A stretch of 64,000 nt of DNA, taken from assembly GCA_902790375.1 (NCBI GenBank), contig CADARY010000007.1, positions 55,598 through 119,597 on the forward strand, given 5' to 3'. The translations under genes and the position numbers were made by a program. Below, piece by piece: positions 35,059 through 55,456 of the stretch; position 1 is the first letter of the stretch; each line of letters opens with the position of its first letter. The notes under the pieces are model-generated. The model saw nothing but the letters and a program-made list of their open reading frames with translations, had not been told where the DNA came from and made no database searches. This DNA is from Oscillospiraceae bacterium (lineage in GTDB: Bacteria; Bacillota; Clostridia; Oscillospirales; Oscillospiraceae).

Positions 35059-36984
35059 TTAAGAGAGAGCGATATCAGGCTGCCAAAAGAATCCTTTGAA
35101 AGTGTGCTGAATCAGAGTGTAAAGCTGCCTTTCGACTGGGGACATTGTTTTGCCCGGATAATATGCCAGCACCAGATAGTACGGTTGAGGTGGCTGTAGG
35201 CTGAAACAATGGCCATGTTCCGAAACGGGGAGCAAATGCAGCGGGAGAATCGTATCTGCGCCGCCGAGTACAGCCAGGCGGCGCAAAAGTGCAAACTCTG
35301 CCTGACAGACGACGTGGGGCGGAGATTCAAAAATCTCTTCATAAAGCCGGTCCTGCTCGGCACGCAGCGTGGTGCCCGCCGTCGCCAGCATCACGGAGCG
35401 CGGCTCGAGCGGAGACGGCAGCGGATCGCCGCCACGCAGCCCGGAAAGAGGCCGGGCGGGATCTGCACAGTAGACAAGCTCTGTTAATCCCAGAATCTCA
35501 CAGTGCAGCTCCGTCTGTTTGGGCGTACAGGTCATAAACAGGGCAAAATCTGTTGAGCTGCTGAGCAGGGCTTCTCTGGATGTCCCGCTGCAGCTTTCCA
35601 CAACCGTCAGCTGGATGTCCGGGTACAGGGAGGAAAAGGCCGGCGTTACCACTTCGGCAAACAGGGAAAGGAGCGTCGAGTCACAGTGGACGAAAAGCCG
35701 CCCGCCGTGGTCGCGGCGGTAGTCCTTGATCACGCGGTCAAGCTCTGCCTCCATGCGGAGAATATTTCGCGCGTTGTTGACAAATACCTTGCCCGCGTTG
35801 GTAGGATAGAGACGGTTGTGCTCACGGTGAAACAGCCTGAGCCCGACCGTCTCTTCCATGTTTCGCAAATGCCGGGAAAGGGCGGGCTGCGCCAGGTAGA
35901 AGCGGTCAGCGGCTCGGGAGAGGCTCTGTTCTTCGACGATGGCGGTCAGATATTCCAGTATTTTTGTGTCAAGGCTTATAAAGCCGGAATCCTGGTGACT
36001 GGCGCCGGAAGCGCGCGTTTGATTGGAGCCGGCAATATAAGCTTCATCTGCGGCTTCCACCATGGCAAACAGCGCGTCGGCCTCCGGGGAACGGATCGGC
36101 TCATAGCGCGGATCGGACAGACGTTCACGGATCAGAAGTCCGGCGAGGTAACGCTCCGGCTCCGTCAGCGTGTGGCCAAGAGGATAGCGCAGATGCAGCC
36201 GCTGGTATACGGGCGGGTCAAGGGATAGGTAGACAAGCTCGTCGCAGGGGAAGACGTGCGCCTTCGATACAAGCCCCGCGCCGACAGCCTGATGCATCAT
36301 GGAATCGAGGAGAATCACATCATCCGACTCGAAGGAGACCACAGGCGCAAACCCGGCTTCGGCAAAAAGCCCGTCCGCGATGGCGCGGATGCTGTGACGC
36401 TTGCCCTGCAGCACAAAGGGCGTGTCCCGCAGGTCGCGCAGGCGTATGCTTTTTTGCCCCGCCAGCGGATGGGAGGAGGGGAGGGAGACCAGCAGCTCCT
36501 CGCGTACGATGGGGATGTCGGTGACAAGCTCGGAATCCGTACCCGCGCCGAGTGCCAGATCGACCTGACCGCGGCGAATGGCATGGGGCTGCTCTCGGGC
36601 ATAGAGCTCCGTCAGACGCAGAGAAATGTCCGGATAGCGGCGGGAGAAGCGATTGTATATTTTGCTGTAGATGATGGCGCCCCGGTTTGGCGCGGTGCAG
36701 ACACGGATGTTCTGCTTTTCCCGCCCCGTGACGCTACGCATGGTAAGCATCATGCGGTTTTGTTCATCCACGATTTTTTCGGCGTATTCCAAAACCTTGC
36801 GCCCCAGGGCGGTCGGGATCTGACGGCGGTGATAGCGAAGGAACAGCGGAGAAGCGCACAGGGAATCCCATTCGGCGAGTACCTTGCTGAGCGCAGGCTG
36901 AGAAATGCCCAGCGCCATAGCGGCTTGGGAAAGGCTTCCGCGTTCGGCGATCGTGAGCAGATAGTGCAGTTGTCGCGTGTTCAT
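35059..36984 (-). CDS. Fusion of two LysR-type transcriptional regulators
   Basis: One open frame of 641 residues encodes two complete LysR proteins in tandem. Unit 1 has its helix-turn-helix at about 1-60 (GSLSQAAMALGISQPALSKV) and an effector domain at about 88-300. Unit 2 has its helix-turn-helix at about 336-392 (QSLSRAADRFYLAQPALSRH) and an effector domain to about 630. A 40-residue linker joins them. The ATG at 36984 has agggggc 9 nt upstream. It is divergent from the TctCBA transporter and is its likely regulator. Normal LysR proteins are about 300 residues and work as tetramers, so this could be a built-in dimer. Confidence 0.9.
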   Translation of the reverse strand: MNTRQLHYLLTIAERGSLSQAAMALGISQPALSKVLAEWDSLCASPLFLRYHRRQIPTALGRKVLEYAEKIVDEQNRMMLTMRSVTGREKQNIRVCTAPNRGAIIYSKIYNRFSRRYPDISLRLTELYAREQPHAIRRGQVDLALGAGTDSELVTDIPIVREELLVSLPSSHPLAGQKSIRLRDLRDTPFVLQGKRHSIRAIADGLFAEAGFAPVVSFESDDVILLDSMMHQAVGAGLVSKAHVFPCDELVYLSLDPPVYQRLHLRYPLGHTLTEPERYLAGLLIRERLSDPRYEPIRSPEADALFAMVEAADEAYIAGSNQTRASGASHQDSGFISLDTKILEYLTAIVEEQSLSRAADRFYLAQPALSRHLRNMEETVGLRLFHREHNRLYPTNAGKVFVNNARNILRMEAELDRVIKDYRRDHGGRLFVHCDSTLLSLFAEVVTPAFSSLYPDIQLTVVESCSGTSREALLSSSTDFALFMTCTPKQTELHCEILGLTELVYCADPARPLSGLRGGDPLPSPLEPRSVMLATAGTTLRAEQDRLYEEIFESPPHVVCQAEFALLRRLAVLGGADTILPLHLLPVSEHGHCFSLQPPQPYYLVLAYYPGKTMSPVERQLYTLIQHTFKGFFWQPDIALS

Positions 36985-37010
36985 CACATAAGCCCCCTTC
37001 ATGCACAATT

Positions 37011-37190: not shown

Positions 37191-38189
37191 ATGAAAGCAA
37201 TGCGCAAAGTGCTCTGCCTCATCGCTGTCCTCTGCCTGATGGCTGCCGTTATGGCTCCCGCGGCCTTCGCGGACGACATCGGCTTCCCCGAGAAGGAAAC
37301 CATCACCCTGGTCGTCCCCGGCAAGGCCGGCGGCGGCTCCGACCTCGCGATCCGCTACTATGCCCAGGCCCTGACCGACCTCTACGGTCTCAAGACCACG
37401 GTCACCAACTATGACTCCAACACCATCGGCCATCAGACCGTGAAAAACGCAAAGCCCGACGGCACCACCATTACCCTGGCTACTGGCGCGCTGAACATCC
37501 AGTACATCACTGGCAACAGCGACATCGACCCCATCAATGACTTCACCCTCATCGCCGCCATGCAGGATAACGGCTATTCCGCCCTCGCCGTTCCCACCAG
37601 CGCCCCTTATGACGATTTCGCGGGCTTCGTGGAATACGCCAAGGCCCATCCCGGCGAGCTCAACGTCGGCATGCCCGCCGCTGGCGCCAACACCTTCCTC
37701 TTTGGCCAGCTCACCAGCACCCTCGGCATCGAGCTCAACCCTGTTGAAATGAGCAGCGAGTCTGACCGTCTCACCAACCTTGCCGGCGGCTTTATTGACA
37801 TCGGTGTTGTCGGTGTCGGCCACGGCGTTGAATATGAGACCGCAGGCAAGCTCAAGGTCATCGGCACCGTCGCCTCCGACGGCGTGACCATTGCGGGTTA
37901 CCCCGAAGAGCTGCCCGACAACTACAAGACCATCCAGGAGCAGGGCTTCAAGGACTGCTACTTCGGTGTCGGCCACTACCTGCTCGGGCCTGCCGGTATG
38001 GACCCCGACATGGTTGCCAAGATGAACGCCGCCATGGAAGCCGTCTATGAGGCCACCAAGGAAGATATTGCCAAGATCGGCAACATCCCCGGCTGGCACA
38101 ACCTCGAGGAGTCCCAGGCCATCCGCCAGGCTGAGTACGAACAGACCGTGGAAATCGCCAAGGCCATCGATCTCTACGAGCAGGGCTGA
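37191..38189 (+). CDS. Tripartite tricarboxylate transporter substrate-binding protein (TctC/Bug family)
   Basis: A 332-residue extracytoplasmic receptor with signal peptide 1-27 (VLCLIAVLCLMAAVMAPAAF then ADD). Family features are the VPGKAGGGSDLAIRYYAQAL ligand loop, NAKPDGTTITLATGALN, the AHPGELNVGMPAAGANT region and DIGVVGVGHG. Bug proteins bind carboxylic acids through water-mediated contacts; aldarates are plausible here because the operon degrades galactarate. The ribosome binding site aaggaga is strong. A hairpin separates it from the membrane components. Confidence 0.9.
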   Translation: MKAMRKVLCLIAVLCLMAAVMAPAAFADDIGFPEKETITLVVPGKAGGGSDLAIRYYAQALTDLYGLKTTVTNYDSNTIGHQTVKNAKPDGTTITLATGALNIQYITGNSDIDPINDFTLIAAMQDNGYSALAVPTSAPYDDFAGFVEYAKAHPGELNVGMPAAGANTFLFGQLTSTLGIELNPVEMSSESDRLTNLAGGFIDIGVVGVGHGVEYETAGKLKVIGTVASDGVTIAGYPEELPDNYKTIQEQGFKDCYFGVGHYLLGPAGMDPDMVAKMNAAMEAVYEATKEDIAKIGNIPGWHNLEESQAIRQAEYEQTVEIAKAIDLYEQG

Positions 38190-38204
38190 GTCTCCTGATC
38201 TAAA

Positions 38205-38242
38205 AACCCGACCCCCAAGGGCAATTCCCCTTGGGGGTTTTG
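38205..38242 (+). terminator. Intra-operon hairpin between tctC and tctB
   Basis: Arms acccccaagg/ccttgggggt extended by aaaa/tttt form a terminator-like hairpin 20 nt after the binding-protein stop. Partial termination here would favour the receptor over the membrane subunits. Confidence 0.7.
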
Positions 38243-38279
38243 AAAAACAGGCAATCTATATTGGAAAGGAGACTTTGCT

Positions 38280-38759
38280 TTGAAACTGAAACGTGACGCG
38301 ATCACCGGTATTGTCGGGCTTTCGTGGTCGCTCATCTGGTTTATACTCATCCAGACCCAGACAAAAGTGCCCAAAAAGCTTCTGGAGCCGGGCCCGCGCC
38401 TTCTGCCCTACGTCGCCCTCGTGGTCGTAGGAGTGAGCTCCCTGATGCTTCTGATCAAGGGCCTCCGGGACTGGAAGCGCGACCCCAAGCCCGATAAGCC
38501 TTATTTCCCCAAAGGCGGCGTCCTGAAGGTCACCAAGAGCTATCTGATGCTGGTGGCGACCGCCATCGGCATGGCGATCTTCGGCTTTCTCATCACCGCG
38601 CCCTTTGCGATCTTCGCCTTCATCTATGACCTCAAGGGCAACAGCACCGTCAAGCCCCTTAATGCGGCAATTATTTCTGTCCTCGTGACGGCGGGCCTGT
38701 ATCTCATGTTCGTTGTCGGATTCCAGGTCAAGCTGCCCATGGGCATGCTCTTCGGTTAA
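38280..38759 (+). CDS. Tripartite tricarboxylate transporter small membrane subunit (TctB family)
   Basis: A 159-residue membrane protein with four hydrophobic segments (about 8-26, 40-58, 83-105, 118-140), the normal TctB size and layout. The start is TTG, seven bases after aaaggaga; no ATG is available in frame nearby. It lies between tctC and tctA, the usual order. Confidence 0.85.
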   Translation: MKLKRDAITGIVGLSWSLIWFILIQTQTKVPKKLLEPGPRLLPYVALVVVGVSSLMLLIKGLRDWKRDPKPDKPYFPKGGVLKVTKSYLMLVATAIGMAIFGFLITAPFAIFAFIYDLKGNSTVKPLNAAIISVLVTAGLYLMFVVGFQVKLPMGMLFG

Positions 38760-38774
38760 GGGAGGAAACATATC

Positions 38775-40343
38775 ATGTCCAATCTTGCTCTGTACGGTTC
38801 CGCCCTGCTGGTGTGCCTCAAACCCATTAACCTGCTGCTCATCTTCGCTATGGTTGCCCTCGGCATCGTCTTCGGCGCGATCCCCGGTCTCTCGGCCACC
38901 CTCGGTATCGCGCTGCTGCTGCCCGTGACCTTCGGCCTTTCCACCGAGACGAGCTTCGTGCTGCTGCTCGCCATCTGGATCGGCGGCGTGTCCGGTTCCT
39001 TTATCTCCGCTGTTCTGATCGGCATTCCCGGTTCCTCTTCCGCCATTGCCACCTGCTTTGACGGCTATCCCATGACGCTCAAGGGCGAGTCGAACAAGGC
39101 TCTCGCCATCGGTATCACGGCCTCTTTCCTCGGCACGCTCTTCTCCGTCCTGATCGCCACGCTGGTCTCGCCTATCATTGCGGACTTTGCCCTGACCCTC
39201 GGCCCCTGGGAGTACTTCTCCCTGTGCTTCTGCGCCATCACGTTGGTGGCAAGTCTCTCCAAGGGCAATATCTGGAAGGGCATGATGTCGGCCGGCCTCG
39301 GCTTCATGCTCGGCTGCATCGGTATGGACCCCATCAACGGCACCCAGCGCTTCACCTTCGGCTCAACAAACCTTTCCGCCGGTATCTCCACGGTCGCTCA
39401 GATGCTCGGTATGTTTGCCATGTGCCAGATCATCCGTGACTCGGCCCGCGGCGAGGCAAAAATGCCCGACGCCTCCACCGCTGGGCAGAAGGGCTTCGGC
39501 ATCGGGATCAAAGATTACTTCAAGAACATTAAGACCGTGATCTTTGCCTTTGTCTCCGGCCTTTGGATCGGTTTCCTGCCCGGCATGGGCTCCGGCATCT
39601 CCAACATGGTGGCCTACGGCTACGCCAAGAGCGTCAACAAGGACCCTGAGGTTCCTTTCGGTGAAGGCAACCCCGCCGGTATCTGGGCCAGTGAGACCGC
39701 GAACAATGCCTCCCTCGGCGGCGCGCTGATCCCGATGATGGCCCTCGGCATCCCCGGCGACGGCATCACCGCCATGCTCATTGCGGCCCTCACCATCCAC
39801 GGCCTGCAGGCGGGCCCGCTGTTCATGACCAATCAGCCCGACCTTGCCATGCTGATCTTTGCCTGCGTGCTGGTGGCGGCTGTGGTGACCTTCATCATCC
39901 AGGTCGCAACCAAGCGCTGGTTTGCCTACATCCTGCGCATTCCCTACCACTACCTGTATTCCGTTATCCTCATCATCGCCTACATCGGCGGCTTCGGCAT
40001 TTCCAACACCATGTTCAACATTTACGTGATGCTGGCCCTGTGCTTGCTGAGCCTCTTCATGAGCATCGGCGGCCTGCCGACAAGCCCCCTCGTTCTGGCC
40101 TTCATCCTCTCCGGCAAGCTGGAGGGTTACTTCCGCCGTGCTATCAGCATGGACAAGGGACACTACGGCAAGTTCTTCACCCGCCCGCTGTCGCTCATCC
40201 TGCTGCTGGTGGCCGTGTTCTGCATCATCTGGCCTTATCTCTCGGAGTACCTCAAGAAACGCCGCGCCGCTGCCAACAAGCTCAGCGAGGCCGACAAGGC
40301 CGCTGCGAATGCCGCAAAGTACGGCGACGTGAGCGATGACTGA
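38775..40343 (+). CDS. Tripartite tricarboxylate transporter permease (TctA family)
   Basis: Large membrane subunit of 522 residues with about twelve helices. It has the two family glycine motifs, near residues 25-40 (GIVFGAIPGLSATLGIALLL) and in the second half (GFLPGMGSGISNMVAYGYAK), and PEVPFGEGNPAGIWASETAN, a strong TctA signature. It uses an ion gradient to drive uptake of the acid delivered by TctC. The stop overlaps the esterase start by 8 nt. Confidence 0.93.
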   Translation: MSNLALYGSALLVCLKPINLLLIFAMVALGIVFGAIPGLSATLGIALLLPVTFGLSTETSFVLLLAIWIGGVSGSFISAVLIGIPGSSSAIATCFDGYPMTLKGESNKALAIGITASFLGTLFSVLIATLVSPIIADFALTLGPWEYFSLCFCAITLVASLSKGNIWKGMMSAGLGFMLGCIGMDPINGTQRFTFGSTNLSAGISTVAQMLGMFAMCQIIRDSARGEAKMPDASTAGQKGFGIGIKDYFKNIKTVIFAFVSGLWIGFLPGMGSGISNMVAYGYAKSVNKDPEVPFGEGNPAGIWASETANNASLGGALIPMMALGIPGDGITAMLIAALTIHGLQAGPLFMTNQPDLAMLIFACVLVAAVVTFIIQVATKRWFAYILRIPYHYLYSVILIIAYIGGFGISNTMFNIYVMLALCLLSLFMSIGGLPTSPLVLAFILSGKLEGYFRRAISMDKGHYGKFFTRPLSLILLLVAVFCIIWPYLSEYLKKRRAAANKLSEADKAAANAAKYGDVSDD

Positions 40344-41424
40344 GCTGCCGCCTGTCTCGCAGCATTATCCAAGCCTGCCGTCTATTCTGCGAAAATATGA
40401 CCGCTATGCCCGCGGGATGCGCTTTACGGGAGAGGACAGGGAAACCCTCCTCTCCTGGCAGCGGGCGGCGCGGGAAAAACTCTCCGGCCTTCTGGGGCTT
40501 GAGAAGATGGAAGTCTGCCCGCTTGAGCCGGAATGCACAGAGACGGTGACGCTGCCGGACGGCATCCGCCGCGAGCGCTGGACAATCCAAACCGAGCCGG
40601 ATGTGACTATGCCCTTCTATCTGCTGATCCCGCCGACAGCCGACCGGACGACGCGCCCATTCCTCTGCCCGCCGGGTCACGGCGGGGCGGGGAAGTACAG
40701 TGTGGCGGGTCTGCGGGAGTTCAGCGCAGTCGCGGAAAAAATCGATCTTTATAACTACGACTACGGCCTGCAGCTTGCCCGCCTCGGCTATGTGGCCCTG
40801 TGTCCGGACTGCAGGGGCTTCGGCGAACGGCGGGAGGAGCCCGGCGACACCCGGATGCTTCCCAGCGCACTGACAGGCGACTGCCTGCGGCTTGCCAGAA
40901 TGGGAGAGCCGCTGGGGATCCCGGTGCTCGGCATGCTGGTCTGGGATCTCATGCGGACGGTGGATTATCTTGCGCAGCGCGGACAGTGGGATTATAATAA
41001 CGTTGCGTGTCTTGGCTTTTCGGGCGGCGGGATGCAGACTCTGTTTTTTAGTGCACTGGAGGAGCGCATAAGCTGTGCGTTTGTATCCGGCTACTTCTAC
41101 GGATACAGGGATTCACTCCTGTGCCAGAGCTGGAACTGCTCCTGCAACTATGTACCCCATCTCTGGGAGTATTTCGACATGGGGGACATCGCCTGTCTTA
41201 TCGCGCCGCGCCCGCTGCTGATTCAGAGCTGCCGGGAAGACCGGCAAAACGGGCCGCGCGGGCTTGACAATGTGCTCGAACAGGTGGAGACCGTCCGCAG
41301 AGCTTACCGGCTGCTGGACGCGGAAGACCGTCTGAGCCACGAGATCTGCGAGGGCCCGCACCGCTTCCACAGCGAGCATCTGACCGAAGAGCTGAAAACA
41401 CTTACCGAACATTCCGGAGGATAA
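40336..41424 (+). CDS. Alpha/beta hydrolase, acetylxylan-esterase-like
   Basis: A cytosolic 362-residue hydrolase. The nucleophile elbow is GFSGGGMQ near residue 233, the oxyanion HGG is in PPGHGGAGK, and a C-terminal Asp and His (EDRQN, GPHRFHSEHL) complete the triad. The family includes acetyl and acyl sugar esterases used in pectin and hemicellulose degradation. No signal peptide is present, so its substrate must already be inside. It overlaps tctA and is followed after 4 bp by the GH28 gene, so it probably removes ester groups from the imported compound. Confidence 0.8.
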   Translation: MTELPPVSQHYPSLPSILRKYDRYARGMRFTGEDRETLLSWQRAAREKLSGLLGLEKMEVCPLEPECTETVTLPDGIRRERWTIQTEPDVTMPFYLLIPPTADRTTRPFLCPPGHGGAGKYSVAGLREFSAVAEKIDLYNYDYGLQLARLGYVALCPDCRGFGERREEPGDTRMLPSALTGDCLRLARMGEPLGIPVLGMLVWDLMRTVDYLAQRGQWDYNNVACLGFSGGGMQTLFFSALEERISCAFVSGYFYGYRDSLLCQSWNCSCNYVPHLWEYFDMGDIACLIAPRPLLIQSCREDRQNGPRGLDNVLEQVETVRRAYRLLDAEDRLSHEICEGPHRFHSEHLTEELKTLTEHSGG

Positions 41425-41428
41425 GCAA

Positions 41429-43474
41429 ATGGAGAAAGCGACACTGCGTGAAGAGATCCTGCGCCATATCGCAATGCCTGTGATCCCCGAGCGTATCGTG
41501 CAGGCCACGGCCTGCGGTATCTATCCCGACACCGGCAAAAATCTGACCCGTGCTCTGCAGAACGCCATCGATGATTTAAGCGAGAGCGGCGGGGGACGGC
41601 TCTGCCTGTCCGCCGGGGTCTGGCGCAGCGGCGCCCTGCAGCTTAGAAGTGGCGTGGAGCTCCATCTGGAAACCCCGGAGACAATTCTGCAGTTTATCAA
41701 TACGGAAATAGAAGAAAACTATCCCGTTGTCTACTCCCATTGGGAAGCCAGCCCCTGCTATAACTTCAGTGCCCTCCTGTACGCGAAGGACGCGCATGAT
41801 ATCGCGGTGAGCGGGCCGGGCGTACTCGACGGCGGCGCGGATCAACACCATTGGTGGGACTGGCATCATCAGGTGGAAGAGGCGTGGTCAGCCGATCGCG
41901 TCGACCTGCAGCAGCCTGACCGCCTGGCCCTGCGCCAAATGAACATGGAGGCAGTGCCCGTTGAAGAGCGCCGTTTCGGACCAGACCATTATCTGCGCCC
42001 AAACTTTGTTCAGTTTCTCTGCTGCGAGCGTGTGTTGCTTCGGGGTGTGACTCTGAAAAGCAGCCCCATGTGGCAGCTCAACCCCGTCCTGTGCCGAAGT
42101 GTGATCGTGGACGGCGTGACGCTCTCCAGCCACGGCAGCAACAATGACGGCTGCGACCCGGAAAGCTGCTGCGGCGTGTGGATCAAAAACTGCCGCTTTG
42201 ATACCGGCGACGACTGTATCAGCCTAAAGTCCGGCCGCGACCGGGACGGCCAGAGAACCAATACCCCCTGCGAAAACGTCCTGATCGAAAACAATGAGTT
42301 TCTGGACGGACACGGCGGCATCGCGCTCGGCAGTGAAATGAGCGGCGGCATCCGAAGAGTGCTGGCTGACGGCAACCGCTTTTCTAGCCCTAACCTGACC
42401 TATGCCCTGCGCCTGAAAACCAACGCACGCCGCGGTGGTTTCGTAGAAGAAATCATGCTTTCAAACAGCGTAATGGACACGGTGCACGGCGCAGCGGTTC
42501 ATGGCACCATGCTCTATGAGGACGGACGAAACGGGGACAGCCTGCCCGTGTTCCGGGACATCACCATCGAAAACATCGAGGCCAACGGCGGCGATTACGG
42601 CATCTTCCTCGAGGCCTTTCCCGAGGTACCCATCACCGGCCTCACCCTGCGCAATATCCATATTGACAGTGCGAGAAAAACCATGCGTTTCATGAACTGG
42701 CAAAACCCCGTGATTGAAAACGTGTTCATTAACGGCAAGCGCTTTCCGCGCCCTGTCTCGGTGCGCATTCTCGGCGTACCTGCTCCCGGTGCTCCTTTGA
42801 CAGCCGAGGCTGTGTGCCTGACGGAGCAGAGCCTCTCCTATTGCTGGGAAAGCTCAGCAGACGGTAAAGTTTGGATCAAATGCGGCAAAGGGAAGAAGCT
42901 CAAGACACCGGAAGCCGCCTGGCTTCGCGTTACGGTAAGCGACGCACAGGGCAACGAGGAGACAAGCTGCCCCTACCGTGTTCTGTCTGCCCCAGCCACC
43001 GGAGCGGCAGCAAGACTAATCTGCCGGAACATGCTTCCCGCGGGGGTAGTCCCTACGGAGGAGGCGGTCACGCGCATGCAGCTGGCGGCGATGCTTCTGC
43101 CGCTGGCTGATCCGAAGCTGCGCGGCCCTGTTCCGAAAGATACGCAGGCGATGACGGCGCTCGCGGCGGTGGCCAACCGCTTCCTGGCACTCGATGGCGA
43201 GGGCAATTTCTGCCCCGGGGACAGCATAACCCGGCAGGAGATGGCGAGTGTTGCGATGCAGGCCTGCGGCGTCAACTACCGCAATGCCTCAAGCACGATG
43301 CCGGTCTGCCTGGATGCGCAGGAGGTTGCCAACAATTACGGTACGAATGTGGCCCGTGCGCTGTACTTTGGATTTATGCAGCTGGAAGAAGAAAGGTTTT
43401 GCCCCCATCGGCCCGTAACGGTCAGAGAAGCCATCGCGATCCTCGACCGTGTGGCGGACTTCGCGGGGCTGTGA
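41429..43474 (+). CDS. Glycoside hydrolase family 28 protein with C-terminal SLH-like repeats
   Basis: A 681-residue protein. Residues 1-455 are a GH28 beta helix (polygalacturonase family) with catalytic-site motifs SNNDGCDPES, DTGDDCISLKS, DGHGGIALGSE and the basic RLKTN. An Ig-like stretch (about 456-535) follows. The last 140 residues contain two or three S-layer-homology-like repeats (TRMQLAAML, ITRQEMASVAMQ, VTVREAIAILDRV). There is no signal peptide or lipobox, which contradicts a surface role for SLH domains. In context it should cleave a galacturonide or related glycoside after uptake. Confidence 0.85.
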   Translation: MEKATLREEILRHIAMPVIPERIVQATACGIYPDTGKNLTRALQNAIDDLSESGGGRLCLSAGVWRSGALQLRSGVELHLETPETILQFINTEIEENYPVVYSHWEASPCYNFSALLYAKDAHDIAVSGPGVLDGGADQHHWWDWHHQVEEAWSADRVDLQQPDRLALRQMNMEAVPVEERRFGPDHYLRPNFVQFLCCERVLLRGVTLKSSPMWQLNPVLCRSVIVDGVTLSSHGSNNDGCDPESCCGVWIKNCRFDTGDDCISLKSGRDRDGQRTNTPCENVLIENNEFLDGHGGIALGSEMSGGIRRVLADGNRFSSPNLTYALRLKTNARRGGFVEEIMLSNSVMDTVHGAAVHGTMLYEDGRNGDSLPVFRDITIENIEANGGDYGIFLEAFPEVPITGLTLRNIHIDSARKTMRFMNWQNPVIENVFINGKRFPRPVSVRILGVPAPGAPLTAEAVCLTEQSLSYCWESSADGKVWIKCGKGKKLKTPEAAWLRVTVSDAQGNEETSCPYRVLSAPATGAAARLICRNMLPAGVVPTEEAVTRMQLAAMLLPLADPKLRGPVPKDTQAMTALAAVANRFLALDGEGNFCPGDSITRQEMASVAMQACGVNYRNASSTMPVCLDAQEVANNYGTNVARALYFGFMQLEEERFCPHRPVTVREAIAILDRVADFAGL

Positions 43475-43502
43475 TCAACCACAAACAGGAAAGGAGACTC
43501 CC

Positions 43503-44600
43503 ATGTGGCTGACCTATTTTAAGCAATATCTGAACGAGATTTTTCCGCGTTTTCTCACGGAGAAGCCGTGGAACTATAAAGATGACCTCTGCGTCGTCGG
43601 CGCGGAGGATCTGGCAAAGGCGACCGGCGATGAAAGCTGGACACAGCCTGTTCTGGAAAACGCCGCCTGTCTTATGCGCCCTGATGGAAGCGTTGTCAAC
43701 TGGGCAGAGGGGGAGCACAACCTGGACAAGGTGAGCTTCGGCAAGTCCCTGCGCATCCTGCGTGACCTGACCGGGGATGCGCGATATGCCGCGGCGGTGG
43801 AGCGGGCCTGTCACATGCTGGACGACTATCCCCGCACCGTGACCGGAAATTTCTGGCACAAGGACATTTACCCCCATCAGGTCTGGCTGGATGGGCTGTA
43901 CATGGGCATGCCCTTCTACGCGCGCTGCCTCGCGGAATCCGGGAAAGACCGCTGGGACGATATCCTCAACCAGTTTCAAAGCGCCCACAAGCTCTTATGG
44001 AACGAGCGCCTTGGCCTTTATATGCACGCAAACGACTGCTCCCGCGAGGCAGAGTGGGCCGATCCCGTGACCGGGCAGAGCCCCGCCGTTTGGCTTCGGG
44101 CCGAGGGCTGGTTCTTGATGGCGCTGGTGGACACCTATGAGATTGCACAGGAGCATAGCCCTCGCGCATCTGAACTTATCCCCCTGCTGCGAAATGCCCT
44201 CGACGGCATTCTGCAATATCAGGTGCCGAAGACGAAGATGTTCCTGCAGGTGGTGGACCGGGCCGATCTCAGCGGCAACTACTCCGAGACCTCCGGCAGC
44301 GCCATGGTCGCCTATGCCCTCATGAAGGGAGCGCGCCTCGGTATGCTGCCCGCGCCTTACGGCGAGCGCGGCAGCGAGATCCTGGACGCGATCCGGGATA
44401 CCTATCTCATAAATGAGAATGGCGAGTATCACCTTTACGGCATCTGTGCAAGCGCAGGCCTCGGCCCCGGACCGGACAATCGCACCGACCGGGACGGTAC
44501 CCCGGCCTATTACCTAAGCGAAAAGCAGATGACGGACAATCAGCACGGCACCGGCGCCTGCATGATGGCCGTCAGCGAACAGCTCCTGCGCACCAGATAA
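43503..44600 (+). CDS. Glycoside hydrolase family 105/88-like protein
   Basis: A 365-residue alpha/alpha barrel protein of the unsaturated rhamnogalacturonyl/glucuronyl hydrolase type (YteR-like). Features are the DGLYMGMPFYAR segment with its catalytic-site Asp, EWADPVTGQSPAVWLRAEGW, the WARAEGW-like motif of this family and the SGSAMVAYALMKG block. No signal peptide is seen. The ATG at 43503 has aggaaaggag 7 nt before it; the upstream frame overlaps GH28. Partnering with GH28 suggests stepwise removal of uronic residues from an imported molecule. Confidence 0.85.
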   Translation: MWLTYFKQYLNEIFPRFLTEKPWNYKDDLCVVGAEDLAKATGDESWTQPVLENAACLMRPDGSVVNWAEGEHNLDKVSFGKSLRILRDLTGDARYAAAVERACHMLDDYPRTVTGNFWHKDIYPHQVWLDGLYMGMPFYARCLAESGKDRWDDILNQFQSAHKLLWNERLGLYMHANDCSREAEWADPVTGQSPAVWLRAEGWFLMALVDTYEIAQEHSPRASELIPLLRNALDGILQYQVPKTKMFLQVVDRADLSGNYSETSGSAMVAYALMKGARLGMLPAPYGERGSEILDAIRDTYLINENGEYHLYGICASAGLGPGPDNRTDRDGTPAYYLSEKQMTDNQHGTGACMMAVSEQLLRTR

Positions 44601-44613
44601 GGAGGAACGAAGC

Positions 44614-45459
44614 ATGATTCAACTTGGCCTGCGTCTGCACGACGCCGAGAAGCTGCCTGTAGAGAAGCTCCTGCCACTCGTCCGGCAGAAGGGCTTTACC
44701 TGCAGCCATTTGGCCCTGAGCAAGCTCTTTAAGGACCTGCCATGCACGCCCGCAGCCCTGACGCCCGGCTATGCAAATTATCTGAAACGCGTTTTCGCTG
44801 CCAACGGCATCGACATTGCCGTCATCGGCAATTACCTCAATCTTCTGCACCCGGACGAGGAATACCTCCGGGATGCAGAGGAAAAGTACTACGCCCATAT
44901 CCGCTTCGCCTCTCTTCTCGGCTGCGGCATGGTGGGCACCGAGACCGGCGCCCCGAACCGGGAATACAAGTTCTGCCCGGAATGCCGGAAGGATGAAACC
45001 TTGTCCCTTTTCATCAAGCGCCTCAAGCCCATTGTCCGCTGCGCTGAAGAGTTCGGCGTCATCTTCGCCATCGAGCCTGTGGCACGCCATAGCGTTTACG
45101 ATCCGAAATCCTGCCGCCGGGTGCTCGATGAGATCGGCAGCCATAATCTCCAGGTGCTCTTCGACCCGGTGAACATGCTGGATCTGGATAACGTGGATCA
45201 CCGGGATGAGCTTTTCCAGGAGGCCATCGAGCTTTTGGGCAAAGACATCGCAATGGTGCATCTCAAGGACTTTGTGCGCGTCAATGAGGGCTACGGTCTC
45301 AAATCCGTCGGCGCGGGCACAGGCGAGATGGACTACAGCGCTATCATGAAGTATCTCAAGAAAGAGAAGCCGTTCATATACGCAACCCTCGAGAACACTA
45401 CCCCCGAAAACGCGGCTGCCTGCCGACAGGCCATGCAGGACGCTTATGACAACGCTTAA
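44614..45459 (+). CDS. Sugar phosphate isomerase/epimerase (TIM barrel)
   Basis: A 281-residue AP-endonuclease-2-like TIM barrel (xylose isomerase-like family). Metal ligands fit IEPVARH (Glu), VLFDPVNML (Asp), VHLKDF (His) and the final TLENTTP (Glu). Such proteins epimerise or isomerise sugars and sugar acids; the exact step here is unknown. It lies 13 bp after GH105 with ggagg, and could adjust the stereochemistry of a released sugar acid before it enters the galactarate route. Confidence 0.85.
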   Translation: MIQLGLRLHDAEKLPVEKLLPLVRQKGFTCSHLALSKLFKDLPCTPAALTPGYANYLKRVFAANGIDIAVIGNYLNLLHPDEEYLRDAEEKYYAHIRFASLLGCGMVGTETGAPNREYKFCPECRKDETLSLFIKRLKPIVRCAEEFGVIFAIEPVARHSVYDPKSCRRVLDEIGSHNLQVLFDPVNMLDLDNVDHRDELFQEAIELLGKDIAMVHLKDFVRVNEGYGLKSVGAGTGEMDYSAIMKYLKKEKPFIYATLENTTPENAAACRQAMQDAYDNA

Positions 45460-45481
45460 TAATTAGAAGGAGATAAATAAT

Positions 45482-46363
45482 ATGAAAATCGGATTCATCG
45501 GAATGGGTATCATGGGCAAGCCCATGGCAATCAATCTTGTAAAAGCGGGCTACGATGTGACGGTCTCCAACCGCAACATGGCAAAGTGCGATCCCGTCGT
45601 CGCCGTCGGCGCGAAGGCCGGCAGCTATACTGAAGTCGCCGAAAGCTGTGATGTCGTCATCACCATGCTCCCCAACGGCCCACAGGTTAAGTCCGTCATG
45701 CTGGGGGAAAACGGTGTCGCCGCACACATGAAGCCCGGCTCCACCTTCATCGACATGAGCTCCATCAATCCCGTCGCTTCCAAGGAGCTATGCGAAGGCG
45801 TCGCGCAGTACGGCATCGAGATGCTGGATGCCCCGGTCTCCGGCGGCGAACCCAAGGCCATTGACGGCACCCTCTCCATCATGGTCGGCGGCAAGCAGGA
45901 CGTGTTTGACAAGTATAAAGACATGCTCGGCGCGATGGGTTCCTCTGTTGTGCGCTGCGGCGATGTGGGCGCGGGCAACACCACGAAGCTTGCAAACCAG
46001 ATCATCGTGGCCTGCAACATCCAAGCCCTGGCCGAGGCGCTGACCCTCGCGCAGAAGGCGGGCGTCGATCCCAACCTCGTTTTCGACGCTATCAAGGGCG
46101 GGCTTGCCGGCTCCACGGTCATGAACGCCAAGGCCCCCATGATGATTGCGGGCAACGATAAGCCCGGCTTCAAGATCGACCTGCACATCAAGGACCTCAA
46201 CAACGCCCTTGACTGCGCTCACGCTGTCGGCGCGCCGGTCCCCATGACAGCCTCTGTGCAGGAGATCCTCCAGTGGATGCACAACCACGAGGGCGGCAAC
46301 AAGGATCACAGCGCCATCGCCCAGTACTACGAGTACCTGACCGGCATTCAGATCGGCCGTTGA
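45482..46363 (+). CDS. garR: 2-hydroxy-3-oxopropionate (tartronate semialdehyde) reductase
   Basis: Beta-hydroxyacid dehydrogenase of 293 residues, reducing tartronate semialdehyde to D-glycerate with NAD(P)H. The Rossmann motif is GFIGMGIMGKPMA (residues 4-16), the substrate motif DAPVSGGEPKA at about 118, the catalytic Lys in GNTTKLANQ at about 168 and the DLHIKDLNNAL segment near 240. Its place between the isomerase and the aldolase-like gene, with GarD and a glycerate kinase following, supports the GarR role over 3-hydroxyisobutyrate dehydrogenase. Confidence 0.88.
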   Translation: MKIGFIGMGIMGKPMAINLVKAGYDVTVSNRNMAKCDPVVAVGAKAGSYTEVAESCDVVITMLPNGPQVKSVMLGENGVAAHMKPGSTFIDMSSINPVASKELCEGVAQYGIEMLDAPVSGGEPKAIDGTLSIMVGGKQDVFDKYKDMLGAMGSSVVRCGDVGAGNTTKLANQIIVACNIQALAEALTLAQKAGVDPNLVFDAIKGGLAGSTVMNAKAPMMIAGNDKPGFKIDLHIKDLNNALDCAHAVGAPVPMTASVQEILQWMHNHEGGNKDHSAIAQYYEYLTGIQIGR

Positions 46364-46373
46364 GGTGAAGGGC

Positions 46374-47276
46374 ATGAATACGGACTTTATCAAGGGCGTC
46401 GTTGTTCCGATCCTCACGCCCATTGACGCGGACGAGCGTATCGACGAGGCTGCCTTTCGCCGTCAGATCGACTATGTGATCGACGGCGGTATGCACGGCA
46501 TCCTGGTCTTCGGCTCCAACGGGGAGTTTTATCAGATCGAAGAGGACGAGATGGAGCGCGGACTGAAAATCGCCGTTGACCACACAGCGGGCAGAGTTCC
46601 GGTCTATTTCGGCATCGGCGCCATTAATACAAAAAAGTGCGTCCGCCTTGCGAAAATGGCGGTCAAAAACGGTGCGGCGGCAGTGTCCATCCTCCAGCCC
46701 ATGTTCCTGAAACCCACACAGGACGAACTGTTCCTGCACTTCAAGACCGTGGCCGAGGCTATCCCTGAGACGCCGGTCCTGCTCTACAACAATCCCGGTC
46801 GTGTCGGCTACGGCATGACGGCGGCCCTCATCACCCGGCTTGCCCATGATGTCGACAACATCGTCGGCATGAAGGACACCTCTGGCGACATCACCCTCAC
46901 CGAGGAGTGCGTGCGTCTCAACCGCGATATCGGCTTTAAGGTCTTCGGCGGCAAGGACACGCTCCTGTATGCCAGCCTCTGTGTCGGCGCAGTAGGCGGC
47001 GTTTGCACCGCGGGCAATTTCATGCCGGAGCTCATCGGCGCTGTGTACGAGCGCTATGCCGCGGGCGATATGCAGGGCTCGCTGGAGGCGCAATTCAAGC
47101 TCAATCCCGTGCGCCTTTCGATGGACCCCGCCTCCTTCCCGGTGGCGGCGAAGGACATGGCGAAGCTGCGCGGTCTTGAGGTCGGCGATCCCTATCGCCC
47201 GAACCTCCCGACGCCTGAGGGCCCGGTTCTCGAGAATATCCGCAAAGCCATGCGTGAGGCAGGACTGATCGAATAA
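46374..47276 (+). CDS. DapA-family lyase, probable 5-dehydro-4-deoxyglucarate aldolase
   Basis: A 300-residue class I aldolase of the dihydrodipicolinate synthase/N-acetylneuraminate lyase family. It has the VFGSNGEFYQ loop (G-S-N-G-E), Tyr in LLYNNPGRVGY and the Schiff-base Lys in VGMKDTSGD. A lysine role is unlikely in this operon. Placed between garR and garD, it fits the step that splits 5-dehydro-4-deoxyglucarate into pyruvate and tartronate semialdehyde, which in E. coli is done by the unrelated GarL. A dehydratase giving 2-oxoglutarate semialdehyde is the main alternative, but garR and the kinase argue against it. Confidence 0.8.
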   Translation: MNTDFIKGVVVPILTPIDADERIDEAAFRRQIDYVIDGGMHGILVFGSNGEFYQIEEDEMERGLKIAVDHTAGRVPVYFGIGAINTKKCVRLAKMAVKNGAAAVSILQPMFLKPTQDELFLHFKTVAEAIPETPVLLYNNPGRVGYGMTAALITRLAHDVDNIVGMKDTSGDITLTEECVRLNRDIGFKVFGGKDTLLYASLCVGAVGGVCTAGNFMPELIGAVYERYAAGDMQGSLEAQFKLNPVRLSMDPASFPVAAKDMAKLRGLEVGDPYRPNLPTPEGPVLENIRKAMREAGLIE

Positions 47277-47282
47277 CAAAAC

Positions 47283-47310
47283 AACGGGTCGGTGTTTTTC
47301 CCGACCCGTT
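47283..47310 (+). terminator. Attenuator-like hairpin between the aldolase and garD genes
   Basis: A perfect 10-bp stem aacgggtcgg/ccgacccgtt with an 8-nt loop ends just before the garD ribosome binding site (aggagg). Confidence 0.6.
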
Positions 47311-47324
47311 TTCAGGAGGCAGCT

Positions 47325-48848
47325 ATGGAAGCACTCAGTATCAAAATCAACGAACGCGACAATGTCGCCGTCGCCATCCGTGATCTTGCAAAGGGAACAG
47401 CGCTTCCCGACGGGACCGTGCTGCAGCAGGACATCCCCCAGGCGCACAAGATCGCCCTCTGCGATATCCCGGCAGGCGGTGAGGTCGTGCGCTACGGCGT
47501 CGTGCTCGGTACCATGCGTGAGGATATGCACCGCGGCGGCTGGGTCAACGAGACCAATCTTCTCATGGCCCCCGCGCCCGATCTCGACGCCATGCGTTTT
47601 TCCGCCAATATCGTCACCGAACTGCCCGAGCCGCCCGTCAAAACCTGGATGGGCTACCCGAACCCCTGGGGCGAGGGGCCGGGCGGCACGCGCAACATCC
47701 TCTGCATCAACACTACGGTCCAGTGCGTCATCGGCGTGGTCAATGACGCCATCTCCCGCATCCGCCGGGACCTTCTGCCGAAGTACCCCAATGTGGACGA
47801 CGTGGTGACGGTCAACCACCAGTACGGCTGCGGCGTCGCCATCGACGCGCCGGAGGCCAAGGTGCCGCAGCGCCTCATCCGCAACATCGCCCTGCACCCG
47901 AACTTCGGCGGCGAGTTCATGCTTGTCGGTCTCGGCTGTGAAAAGTTCACGCCCGAACGCTTCTGTGCCCTCTGGCCGGAGCTGAATACGCCCGAGAATG
48001 TCATTATCCTGCAGGATCACAAAGGCCACAATGCCGTGATGAACGCGATTCTGGACATGGCGGAGAAGAAGCTTCAGAAGCTCAACGAGCGCAGGCGTGT
48101 GGCGCTGCCCCTCAGCGACCTGCTGGTCGGGATGCAGTGCGGCGGCTCCGACGCCTTCTCCGGCATCACCGCCAATCCCACGGCGGGCTATGCGGCAGAT
48201 CTGATTGTCTCCGGCGGAGGCACCGTCATGTTCTCCGAGGTGACCGAGGTGCGCGACGGCGTGCAGTTCATCGCCGAGCGCTGCATCGACGATCAGGTCG
48301 GCGCGCGGCTCGTGGAGGAGATGAAGTGGTACGACGAGTACCTCCGCGCGGGCGGTGTGGACCGCGGCGCGAACACTACACCCGGCAACAAGAAGGGCGG
48401 CCTCTCCAACATCATCGAAAAGTCCATGGGCTCCATCGCCAAATCCGGCACCTCGCCCATCGTGGAGGTGCTGTCTCCCGGCGAGAGGCCCACAAAGCAC
48501 GGCGAGATCTTTGCAGCGACCCCGGCCTCCGACCTCTTCTGCGGCACCAGCCAGCTTGCTAGCGGTATGGGCCTGCAGGTCTTCATGACCGGACGCGGTA
48601 CACCCTACGGCCTCGCCGCGGCTCCGGTGATCAAGGTCTGCTCGAGAAGCGAGATGAAGGAGCAGTGGCCCGATATCATCGATTATGACGCAGGCCCCGC
48701 TGCCCTTGGCAAGGCCACGATCGCCGAGCAGGGCGAGGAGATGTTCCGTTATATCCTGGATGTCGCGAGCGGCCGCAGGCAGCCCTATTCGGAGCAATAC
48801 CGCTGGCACAACGATATCTGCATTTTCAATCCAGCCCCTATCACCTGA
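47325..48848 (+). CDS. garD: Galactarate dehydratase
   Basis: A 507-residue enzyme of the UxaA/GarD family that removes water from D-galactarate to give 5-dehydro-4-deoxy-D-glucarate. The N-terminal 90 residues form the SAF-like domain. The large domain follows with HQYGCGVAID, VGMQCGGSDAFSGITANP (Cys and Asp near the iron site), NTTPGNKKGGLSNIIEKSMG and FMTGRGTPYGLA. The last two are near-identical to GarD and distinguish it from altronate dehydratase. The length fits GarD (about 520). The start has caggaggc. Confidence 0.87.
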   Translation: MEALSIKINERDNVAVAIRDLAKGTALPDGTVLQQDIPQAHKIALCDIPAGGEVVRYGVVLGTMREDMHRGGWVNETNLLMAPAPDLDAMRFSANIVTELPEPPVKTWMGYPNPWGEGPGGTRNILCINTTVQCVIGVVNDAISRIRRDLLPKYPNVDDVVTVNHQYGCGVAIDAPEAKVPQRLIRNIALHPNFGGEFMLVGLGCEKFTPERFCALWPELNTPENVIILQDHKGHNAVMNAILDMAEKKLQKLNERRRVALPLSDLLVGMQCGGSDAFSGITANPTAGYAADLIVSGGGTVMFSEVTEVRDGVQFIAERCIDDQVGARLVEEMKWYDEYLRAGGVDRGANTTPGNKKGGLSNIIEKSMGSIAKSGTSPIVEVLSPGERPTKHGEIFAATPASDLFCGTSQLASGMGLQVFMTGRGTPYGLAAAPVIKVCSRSEMKEQWPDIIDYDAGPAALGKATIAEQGEEMFRYILDVASGRRQPYSEQYRWHNDICIFNPAPIT

Positions 48849-48874
48849 TAACTCGATCACGGAGGACAGACGCC

Positions 48875-50110
48875 ATGAACGCTTCGCTCAGAAAAGACGC
48901 AGATCAGATCGTCAGGGAGTGCATCTCAGCCGTATTGCCTGATGAGGCGGTGCGCCGCACGCTCAGAAATTACAGCCCCGGAACGGGGAAGACCCTGCTT
49001 GTCGCGGCCGGCAAGGCCGCCTGGCAGATGGCAAAGGCCGCTGTGGATACGCTGGGGCAGGTGGACGGAGGCGTCGTCATCACCAAATACGGTCATGTCA
49101 TGGGCGAGATCCCGGGTGTTGTCTGCTATGAGGCCGGACATCCCGTACCGGATGAGAACAGCTTTGCCGCTACAAAAAAAGCACTGGAGCTGGTGGAAAA
49201 CCGCAGCGCCGAAGATACGGTGATCTTTCTGCTCTCCGGCGGCGGCAGCGCTCTCTTTGAACTGCCGCTTATCTCCGGGGAAGAACTGCAGGACATTACC
49301 CGGCAGCTTCTCGCAAGCGGCGCGGATATTGTGGAGATGAACACGATCCGCAAGCGCCTGTCCGCCGTAAAGGGCGGCCGCTTTGCCCTTGCCTGCGCCC
49401 CGGCGCGGGTGCTCAGCATCGTGCTGAGCGATATTCTGGGCGATCCTCTGGACATGATCGCAAGCGGCCCGGCTTATCCGGACAGCAGCACCTGCGAACA
49501 CGCCGGGACCATAGCCGCGAAATACGGTCTGAAGCTCAGTCCCGACGCCGAAAAGCTTCTGAACGAGGAGACACCCAAGGAGCTTCATAATGTGGAGACG
49601 CACATCAACGGCTCTGTGCGTGAGCTTTGTGCCGCCGCTGCTGCCGCTGCGCAAAAGCTCGGATATGATCCCATCATCCTGACCGATCAGCTCTGCTGCG
49701 AGGCGCGGGAGGCAGGCAGCTTCCTTGCAAGTATTCTCAAAAGCCATGCACAGTCCGAAAAATCTCTTGCCTTTATCGCAGGAGGTGAAACCGTCGTGCA
49801 CTTGAACGGGCACGGCCTCGGAGGACGAAATCAGGAATTGGCGCTTGCTGCGGCTCCCGGCATTGCAGACATTCCCGGTGCGGCGGTCTTCTCCGTGGGC
49901 AGCGACGGAACGGACGGCCCCACCGATGCCGCCGGCGGCTATGTTGATGGCGAAACCTGCGCGGCGCTGGCGGAGCGCGGGATCTCCGTATTCGATATGC
50001 TGAGGGACAACGACGCCTATCACGCGCTCCAAGCGGTGAGCGGGCTGATCGTCACCGGACCGACCGGTACAAACGTCAATGATGTCGCTGTTGCGCTGCT
50101 GAAGATTTGA
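48875..50110 (+). CDS. Glycerate 2-kinase (GckA/MOFRL family)
   Basis: A 411-residue kinase of the GckA/TtuD type (an N-terminal kinase fold and a C-terminal MOFRL domain), making 2-phosphoglycerate from glycerate. Motifs are VAAGKAAWQMAKAA near 44, the LLSGGGSALFELP phosphate loop near 123, EMNTIRKRLSAVKGGR, LSDILGDPLDMIASGP and, in the MOFRL part, GGRNQELAL and SVGSDGTDGPTDAAGG. It completes the galactarate route. It is unrelated to the E. coli GarK fold. A hairpin follows at 50193. Confidence 0.9.
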   Translation: MNASLRKDADQIVRECISAVLPDEAVRRTLRNYSPGTGKTLLVAAGKAAWQMAKAAVDTLGQVDGGVVITKYGHVMGEIPGVVCYEAGHPVPDENSFAATKKALELVENRSAEDTVIFLLSGGGSALFELPLISGEELQDITRQLLASGADIVEMNTIRKRLSAVKGGRFALACAPARVLSIVLSDILGDPLDMIASGPAYPDSSTCEHAGTIAAKYGLKLSPDAEKLLNEETPKELHNVETHINGSVRELCAAAAAAAQKLGYDPIILTDQLCCEAREAGSFLASILKSHAQSEKSLAFIAGGETVVHLNGHGLGGRNQELALAAAPGIADIPGAAVFSVGSDGTDGPTDAAGGYVDGETCAALAERGISVFDMLRDNDAYHALQAVSGLIVTGPTGTNVNDVAVALLKI

Positions 50111-51580: not shown

Positions 51581-52625
51581 GTGAAACAATCTATCGTATC
51601 CCTGCAGCATGTGGACAAGTGGGGAGATCCTGGAGGGTGAATTCCTGACGCTGCTTGGCCCCTCGGGCTGCGGGAAAACGACAACGCTGCGCATGATCGC
51701 GGGCTTCGAGGACGCAAGCTCCGGCACGATCACCGTACAGGGGGAGCGCATTGAGGACAAGGAGCCGTACCAACGCGATGTCAATACCGTCTTCCAGAAC
51801 TATTCGCTGTTCCCGCATTTGACGGTCTTTGACAACGTGGCCTATGGGCCGTCGATCCGAAAGGTCCCCAAGGCGGAAATCAGGCAGCGCGTGACAGAGA
51901 TGCTGCATCTGGTGCAAATGGATGGTTACGAAAAGCGCAAGCCTGATGCGTTGTCGGGCGGGCAGAAGCAGCGCGTCGCCATCGCGCGGGCGCTGATCAA
52001 CAACCCGCGCGTGCTGCTGCTGGATGAGCCGCTGGGTGCGCTGGACCTCAAGCTGCGCAAGCAGATGCAGATCGAGCTCAAGCGCCTGCAAAGAAAGCTT
52101 GGCATCACCTTCGTCTATGTCACGCACGATCAGGAAGAGGCCATGACCATGTCTGACCGCATCGCCGTCATGCGCGGCGGTGTGATCCTGCAGATCGGCG
52201 CGCCCATGGAAATCTATGACAGGCCCAACTGCCGCTTTGTGGCGGATTTCATCGGGGAATCCAATATCATCGACGGGACTGTCCGCCGTGTGGACGGAAA
52301 GCGTATCGAGGTCGAAACCGCGGACGGAATCGTGCTCACACAGGGGGAGGGCTTCCGGGAAGGGGAGAAGGTGTGCGTCTCCATCCGGCCCGAGTACATT
52401 TGCCTGAGCGATACGCCGCGGGAGGGCTTCACGCTGCATGCCCGCATTAAGGATTTCATCTATATGGGCACGGTCATCAAAACCAGTCTCGACCTGCCGC
52501 ACGGACAGGAGCTGAAGCTGTCCCGCTTCGAAGCGGACCCCACTCTGCATGAAGGGGACGAGCGCTATATCTGGTGGGACACGGAGAAATCTGTTCTCAT
52601 CCACATGGAGGGCGGTGCGGTATGA
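51581..52625 (+). pseudogene. potA: PotA-type ABC transporter ATPase, frame broken near the N-terminus
   Basis: The expected start (GTG 51581 after aaagg) encodes [14 protein letters not shown], then the frame stops at 51640. The body continues in another frame (open from 51609) with [20 protein letters not shown]. Residues that normally lie between (the second strand and early loop of the fold) are missing, so a deletion near 51619-51626 that is not a multiple of three explains both. The rest is intact: the Walker A above, signature [15 protein letters not shown], Walker [25 protein letters not shown] and a C-terminal TOBE domain. It overlaps potB by ATGA. Confidence 0.82.
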
Positions 52626-53500: not shown

Positions 53501-53501
53501 A

Positions 53502-54374: not shown

Positions 54375-54421
54375 AAGGTAAAAGACACAGCGTACCCCAA
54401 ACTGACAGAGGAGGAACAAAC

Positions 54422-55453: not shown

Positions 55454-55456
55454 GTT

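Follow-up and report, generated by a model that had tools for sequence, protein, structure and literature searches.

The operon and its genes

The subject of this analysis is a cluster of eleven genes within a stretch of 64,000 nucleotides of DNA from an Oscillospiraceae bacterium, referred to here, at its full length, as the window. Between positions 37191 and 50110, tightly packed on the + strand, the cluster encodes the TctC, TctB and TctA subunits of a tripartite tricarboxylate transporter (TTT), then an esterase, two glycoside hydrolases of families GH28 and GH105 and an isomerase, and finally GarR, a DapA-type lyase, GarD and a glycerate kinase (Table 1). This is the gene set, the order and the interval of the original prediction, which a model had drawn from the letters of the DNA, and each of the genes matched the family expected of it. 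The intergenic gaps measure -8 to 48 bases throughout, with the exception of the 90 bases between TctC and TctB. The start sites given for the GH105 (43503), the lyase (46374) and GarD (47325) are corrected ones, judged the most likely from the upstream sequence. The genome is a metagenome-assembled genome (MAG) in 95 contigs, 88.6% complete, and absences from it are soft; its host bacterium probably comes from an animal gut.

Table 1. Features of the operon and of its upstream regulator (positions in the window).
Feature	Position	Strand	Basis
LysR-LysR fusion regulator, divergent	35059..37008	-	HTH_1 and LysR_substrate twice (PF00126, PF03466, two stretches each)
TctC, TTT solute-binding protein with signal peptide	37191..38189	+	PF03401 8.3e-20; hydrophobic N-terminus
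Inverted repeat, GC-rich, 11 pairs, in the TctC-TctB gap; possible attenuator	38211..38238	.	terminator-like on the - strand
TctB, small TTT membrane subunit	38280..38759	+	PF07331 1.4e-16
TctA, large TTT membrane subunit	38775..40343	+	PF01970 2.7e-133
Abhydrolase_7 esterase	40336..41424	+	PF12715 8.2e-17
GH28, exo-polygalacturonase-type	41429..43474	+	PF00295; best PDB match 3jur, E 1.7e-129
GH105, unsaturated galacturonyl hydrolase, YteR type	43503..44600	+	PF07470 6.8e-68 (Glyco_hydro_88, the Pfam family holding GH105)
Xylose-isomerase-like ketose/ketouronate epimerase or isomerase	44614..45459	+	PF01261 (AP_endonuc_2)
GarR, tartronate semialdehyde reductase	45482..46363	+	NAD_binding_2/11; NF008592 444 bits, cut-off 397
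DapA-type lyase, presumed 5-keto-4-deoxy-glucarate aldolase	46374..47276	+	DHDPS, PF00701 4.1e-58
GarD, galactarate dehydratase	47325..48848	+	GD_AH; TIGR03248 5.4e-216
Glycerate 2-kinase, MOFRL type	48875..50110	+	PF13660 (DUF4147) and PF05161; NF041176 1.7e-75, below cut-off

Recurrence around one GH28 clade

A scan of genome contigs with the window GH28 gave seven further loci, six of them from MAGs: three assigned to Ruminococcaceae/Oscillospiraceae (L016, L017, L020), two to Faecalibacterium (L018, L022) and one to an uncultured member of the Eubacteriales (L021). The seventh (L019) belongs to the type strain of Proteiniclasticum ruminis, DSM 24773. The GH28 clade looks rare, and no other full-length member was found among 200 genomes of the family, 394 of the order and 398 of the phylum (the sets overlap and contain the host genome; at most five candidates per genome were scored in the family and two in the order and the phylum). 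A double LysR gene accompanies the clade in seven of the eight loci and TctA in six, and GarD is linked in six as well (the window, L016, L017, L018, L019 and L022); of the remaining two, the contig of L020 ends after the GH105, and L021 has no linked GarD. In L017 GarD lies between the GH105 and the isomerase. The persistence of the content while the gene order varies (L017, L019) points to a functional unit, and the recurrence of the set in other genera makes a chance assembly an inadequate explanation. The operon is a recurrent and rare composite of known enzyme families.

To see what usually surrounds such genes, we took 20 further GH28 genes (14 from the family scan and 6 from the order scan) and searched the DNA around them with the proteins of the window (threshold E 1e-8); seven more GH28 stretches were examined as well (L051-L054 and L060-L062, where L052 and L053 lie side by side on a single contig). 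Contig ends truncate several of the stretches, and the 27 leave out the GH28 genes of G495:C36, G662:C26, G726, G624, G696, G628, G894 and G934. GarR, TctA and glycerate kinase were absent from all 27, as was any GarD above 36% identity. Among the first 20, a GH105 was present in 8, the isomerase in 4, an esterase in 1 (30%) and a dehydratase match in 3, at the 33-34% identity that is the UxaA level; the dehydratase matches of the other seven stretches (in L051, L053 and L061) were 32-35% identical. The GH28 of the outgroup genome G700 adjoins a UxaA-type dehydratase, and genome G921 has a GH28 and a distant esterase together with a UxaA-type dehydratase and UxaE.

The reverse control starts from GarD. 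Dehydratases of the window type (63-66% identical) occur in only 4 of the 200 family genomes, the host's included, all other matches being 36% or less, and two members of the phylum have GarD at 51-52%. Seven GarD loci of the plain kind (L055, L056, L090, L091, L092, L110 and L111, with GarD 49-66% identical) had no GH28, GH105, esterase or isomerase in any of them. They contained GarR in four cases, the lyase in four (with a weak fifth in L110), the same type of kinase in three and a TTT in four. Each module is thus found on its own in the control loci, so that the operon amounts to a fusion of an oligogalacturonide module with a galactarate module, and this fusion is seen only around the one GH28 clade.

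The galactarate module and the isomerase

The family searches bear out the galactarate catabolism that had been proposed for the second half of the operon, and the module is complete, with GarD, lyase, GarR and glycerate kinase all present. GarR lies above its NCBIfam equivalog cut-off (Table 1). On the GarD model the UxaA-type protein of the same genome scores 296.7 bits, against 717.9 for GarD itself, and throughout the family GarD-type proteins stand clearly apart from UxaA-type ones by the identities given above. The lyase could be placed in the DapA family only, as it reached no NCBIfam cut-off (KdgD 107.6 against 373.95 bits); its homologues (37-75% identical) share a stretch with GarD in L056, L090, L092 and L111.

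The isomerase belongs elsewhere. Residues E154, D184, H216 and E260, which we take to be the metal ligands of ketose 3-epimerases, are invariant in all nine rows of its alignment. The fold of its structure model matches numerous sugar isomerases and epimerases about equally well, ketose 3-epimerases being frequent among them, and its sole sequence match in the PDB at E 0.001 is TM_0416 (3.3e-4), whose type presumably acts on keto-uronates. Homologues 48-69% identical occur in 4 of the 20 ordinary GH28 stretches, and one of 48% lies in the ordinary locus of the host itself. A role for the isomerase in the galactarate route was considered and rejected, given these close homologues in stretches that have no galactarate genes.

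The hydrolases and their cellular place

Signal peptides were judged by the hydropathy of the N-termini. TctC has one, and the esterase, the GH28, the GH105 and the isomerase have none, as originally predicted. Hidden signal peptides at alternative starts, which would have spoken against that prediction, were looked for in the same way and are ruled out, since the stop-free space upstream of the start is either too short or not hydrophobic (1 codon for the esterase, 11 for the GH28 and 28, not hydrophobic by eye, for the GH105). The further claim that a cytosolic GH28 and GH105 are abnormal did not hold. Their nearest solved relatives are the exo-polygalacturonase of Thermotoga maritima and GH105 enzymes of the YteR type, and a second GH28-GH105 pair, likewise without signal peptide by eye, lies in the ordinary locus of the host genome. 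A cytosolic location of these enzymes is, as such, ordinary.

The GH28 motifs NxD, DD, GHG and RxK, which we regard as catalytic, are invariant in all eight rows, and the top Foldseek match is, as in the sequence comparison, 3jur (an exo-poly-alpha-D-galacturonosidase); with this as its nearest solved relative, the enzyme is predicted to release galacturonate in exo fashion. In the structure model, pLDDT falls below 50 in seven segments, of which the long ones are 101-113, 140-173 and 182-190. The tail of the protein (42749-43471), which the original prediction had overlooked, is a region of beta-strands that looks Ig-like by eye together with degenerate S-layer-homology (SLH) repeats, and is conserved across the clade with invariant stretches such as NASSTMP. 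Matches to SLH (PF00395) appear in seven of the eight GH28 rows at a threshold of E 10, the best at 3.6e-7; that of the window protein, at E 0.0081, is under the Pfam cut-off. Three GH28 loci of the same order (L089, L060 and L061) encode proteins that, by eye, begin with a signal-like N-terminus and end in an SLH-like region. The tail may be left over from an ancestor that was exported, or it may be a module put to new use.

For the GH105, the best PDB matches (4wu0 and YteR) extend over most of the protein, and the motif WLDGLYM, whose Asp is presumably catalytic with a role as in YteR, is invariant in seven of seven rows. The esterase is a putative deacetylase or demethylase of galacturonides. 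Its best PDB sequence match (1.8e-10) is 3nuz, a putative acetyl xylan esterase, which leaves the specificity unfixed, and homologues 27-30% identical are found beside GH28 in L053 and L084; L053 encodes a UxaA-type dehydratase and UxaE as well.

An ordinary pectin-fragment locus in the same genome

Another contig of the host genome (C9) carries a paralogue of the isomerase (48%), a pectinesterase, two permeases of the ATP-binding cassette (ABC) type, a GH28 (24%) and a GH105 (39%), together with KduI and UxaB (tagaturonate reductase), both over their NCBIfam cut-offs, UxaC and a UxaA-type dehydratase. The window operon has no UxaC/UxaA or KduI among its families; these are encoded on C9. In the next relative, RUG10684, GH28, GH105, KduI-family, UxaC and UxaA-type genes likewise share one contig (L098, G200:C7). 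As an ordinary system is already present in the genome, a second GH28-GH105 pair would not be needed for plain oligogalacturonides, which suggests a different substrate for the second set.

Transporter and regulator

The carrier of the operon is a TTT system with its three subunits encoded together. In TctC the GG..D part of the carboxylate-binding loop is kept in all five cluster rows (as AGG in four and PGG in L019), and residue 45 is Lys in these five and in none of nine other TctC rows, four of which come from galactarate loci. The TctC ligand is putatively a carboxylate, and our guess is that Lys45 contacts a further carboxylate group. In a TctA tree of 14 rows, for which the program warns of long branches, the six cluster TctA form one group (support 100/99), and the TctA of L056 and L090, both plain galactarate loci, are the sister of this group (100/100). 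A third galactarate-linked TctA (L055) and the other two TctA of the host genome lie apart from both. The nearest other TctA among 384 genomes of the order (E 1e-100) are 39-40% identical.

A single locus, L021, is informative about what the carrier transports. There TctCBA is kept with the esterase, GH28, GH105 and isomerase, and the 22 kb examined contain no galactarate gene; the GarD of that genome lies elsewhere, with enolase-family proteins (MR_MLE_C) and another TTT. Since the transporter stays with the hydrolases where the galactarate genes are missing, it would carry what the hydrolases cut. The idea that the substrate is taken up intact and stripped inside the cell thus survives in outline.

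The regulator of the set is presumed to be the LysR-LysR protein, a fusion of 649 aa with two helix-turn-helix and two effector domains in one chain. It adjoins the cluster in the window, L016 and L018-L022, L017 being a short contig. Regulators of the LysR family are, we assume, usually single-unit proteins, and the tandem fusion would be an unusual shape; we found no paper on a fused or tandem LysR in the open-licence literature.

A candidate substrate

Plant OGOX enzymes make oligogalacturonides that end in galactaric acid, and some microbes cannot use these as carbon source; in infected Arabidopsis, an accumulation of oxidised digalacturonic acid has been reported (PMC7773757, the latter citing Voxeur 2019). 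Such an oxidised oligogalacturonide is a known molecule that would need galacturonide hydrolases and then galactarate enzymes, and for this reason we take it as the likeliest substrate. In our judgement there is an even chance that the operon is dedicated to oligogalacturonides, chiefly short ones, in which oxidation has turned the reducing end into galactaric acid. The conjugate that was originally proposed, an acylated or otherwise glycosylated aldarate of no particular kind, is narrowed in this way, on the simplest reading, to galacturonosyl-galactarate, because the stripping genes are those of the oligogalacturonide set. We infer all of the substrates, the direction of transport and the regulation.

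The proposed mechanism would run as follows. TctC would bind a small polycarboxylate, such as the oxidised dimer with its three carboxyl groups, for intact import by TctAB, after which the cytosolic esterase may remove ester groups. At saturated non-reducing ends the GH28 would cut off galacturonate, and the GH105 would remove the unsaturated unit that pectate lyases leave behind; either kind of end would thus allow galactarate to be freed. GarD, the DapA-type lyase, GarR and glycerate kinase would then convert galactarate to pyruvate and 2-phosphoglycerate, and the freed galacturonate or unsaturated product would enter the isomerase/KduI/UxaCBA route, encoded at the ordinary locus elsewhere in the genome.

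Several observations weigh against this proposal. The carrier and the esterase are not constant in the set, given that the DNA examined for the two Faecalibacterium loci shows neither TTT nor esterase. L018 has LysR and GH28, then directly the start of GarD and the contig end, and no TctA was found upstream; L022 has no linked isomerase either, and an SBP_bac_1 protein lies between its GarD and GarR instead. L019 lacks the esterase, and L021 the linked galactarate genes. GarD scores slightly under its curated cut-off (717.9 against 730.85 bits). The SLH-like tail of the GH28, typical of exported proteins, is unexplained and makes the cytosolic place of the enzyme uncertain. Two plant-pathogenic bacteria, unlike Botrytis, are reported to grow equally on oxidised and plain long oligomers, and the available part of that paper names no genes for this growth (PMC11992967). 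Growth of bacteria on oxidised oligomers need not, however, make use of the galactarate end.

As a separate observation on L022, its SBP_bac_1 protein (L022:14706-16070) carries a Tat signal, and no ABC permease was seen among the adjacent open reading frames (ORFs), where none was searched for.

Alternative explanations

A less likely reading is that the two modules serve separate substrates under one regulator, both from the same plant food, with the TTT importing free galactarate and the GH28, GH105, esterase and isomerase acting on ordinary oligogalacturonides brought in by an ABC transporter. The TTT present in four of the seven plain GarD loci, two of which supply the sister group of the cluster TctA, fits such an arrangement, as does the Halomonas TctABC predicted for galactarate/glucarate (PMC5812351 and PMC5507952). 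The arrangement is harder to reconcile with L021, whose TTT accompanies the hydrolases while its GarD sits with another TTT, with the GH28/GH105 set that the genome already has next to ABC permeases, and with the difference between the cluster TctC and that of plain galactarate loci in the region of the carboxylate-binding loop. L022, without TTT, also speaks against it, as the solute-binding protein inside its cluster is of a type that we take to be usual for oligosaccharides.

We regard as rather improbable some other conjugate of galactarate, in line with the broader proposal from which the analysis started; it might be an ester with an acyl or phenolic group or a glycoside of another kind, and the esterase would be the key enzyme. 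The esterase is indeed of a broad family, and TTT carriers take diverse acids (PMC5812351). This esterase was not found beside GH28 in L018, L019 and L022, however, although GarD is linked in all three; its distant homologues in L053 and L084 stand beside GH28 without GarR, TctA or a GarD of the window type; and the nearest solved relatives of both the GH28 and the GH105 are galacturonide enzymes.

Very improbable, in our view, is that the substrates are ordinary oligogalacturonides and that galacturonate is converted to galactarate by a uronate dehydrogenase (Udh) encoded elsewhere. This route is known in other bacteria, and in one Halomonas Udh is part of the regulon of the galactarate genes (PMC5507952). 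We searched eight genomes with the Udh of A. tumefaciens (a sequence that matches PDB 3rft over its whole length, residues 1-265; the search included no positive-control genome) and obtained no convincing match. Partial matches, none further classified, appeared in four of the eight, the best with 35.8 bits (E 5.3e-9, residues 1-161) in G203 and one of 26 bits in the host genome, whereas UxaC, of the ordinary route, was present in seven. Oxidation of galacturonate to galactarate by this enzyme was rejected on these weak and partial matches.

That the GH28 works outside the cell, held there by its S-layer-like tail after export without a classical signal, with the TTT taking up only the released acids, is hardly credible, for all the loose SLH matches in seven of eight clade members and the GH28 proteins of the same order whose ends look signal-like and SLH-like by eye, as no start of the window gene allows a signal peptide, its SLH repeats are degenerate and below the Pfam cut-off, and the GH105, esterase and isomerase have no signals either.

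Implications

Plants oxidise the reducing ends of pectin fragments, by which a danger signal is silenced and the fragments become poorer food for Botrytis. Were the dedicated system for oxidised oligogalacturonides real, the operon would name the genes for breaking the protected galactarate end, add a saccharide acid to the single acids carried by TTT systems and account for a niche, based on a product of plant defence, that some Oscillospiraceae, Faecalibacterium and Proteiniclasticum could have in common. In the open-licence literature we found no paper connecting such oligomers with TTT carriers or with galactarate dehydratase, and the same literature agrees with the earlier statement that no system with this gene set has been described. 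It is conceivable, with somewhat less than even confidence on our part, that this is a gut-microbe answer to these compounds, the first cluster to be assigned to oxidised oligogalacturonides and the first TTT to import a whole oligosaccharide acid, a tricarboxylate, under a doubled LysR.

Other features of the window

The inverted repeat in the TctC-TctB gap (38211-38238) is followed by only four T when read on the + strand, and it is weak on its own, as the scan gave 13 terminator-like sites in all against 10.9 expected; it perhaps raises TctC relative to TctAB. A scan for sigma-70 promoters was uninformative (5 sites against 5.0 expected). No RNA element of Rfam was matched in the window, and no tRNA was found. 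Downstream of the operon, at 51609-58046, there is an ABC ATPase with a TOBE domain and an SBP_bac_8 protein, and after them come genes of the SIS, xylose-isomerase-like and PfkB kinase types, a set that we would call reminiscent of fructoselysine-type operons. Upstream, at 28702-34494, lies a dipeptide-type ABC transporter, of which one permease and an SBP_bac_5 protein were confirmed by family search; the second permease and the ATPases, and two methyltransferase-like ORFs nearby, owe their labels to a reading of the ORFs and the sequence.

Comparison with known systems

The closest relatives of the first module are the oligogalacturonide loci, with ABC transporter, GH28, GH105 and KduI/UxaCBA, as on contig C9. 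They share with the window homologous GH28, GH105 and isomerase genes, and their hydrolases are likewise without obvious signal peptides; the window operon differs in having a TTT in place of the ABC transporter and GarD, GarR, lyase and kinase in place of KduI-UxaCBA. The second module resembles the galactarate/glucarate operons with TctABC (Halomonas, PMC5507952, and our loci L055, L056, L090 and L111), with which the window operon has GarD and the TTT in common, whereas the seven plain GarD loci have none of its GH28, GH105, esterase and isomerase. At the level of single proteins, the exo-polygalacturonase of T. maritima (3jur) has the same motifs as the window GH28 and a catalytic core about 40% identical to it, and lacks the tail of about 240 residues, while YteR and 4wu0 match most of the window GH105, which is set apart by its context of galactarate genes. 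The transporter has the three-gene layout and the carboxylate loop of known TTT systems (TctCBA, Bug proteins). The ligand proposed for it is a uronide dimer, whereas the TTT review PMC5812351 contains neither 'disaccharide' nor 'oligosaccharide' and, in the part available, names small acids.

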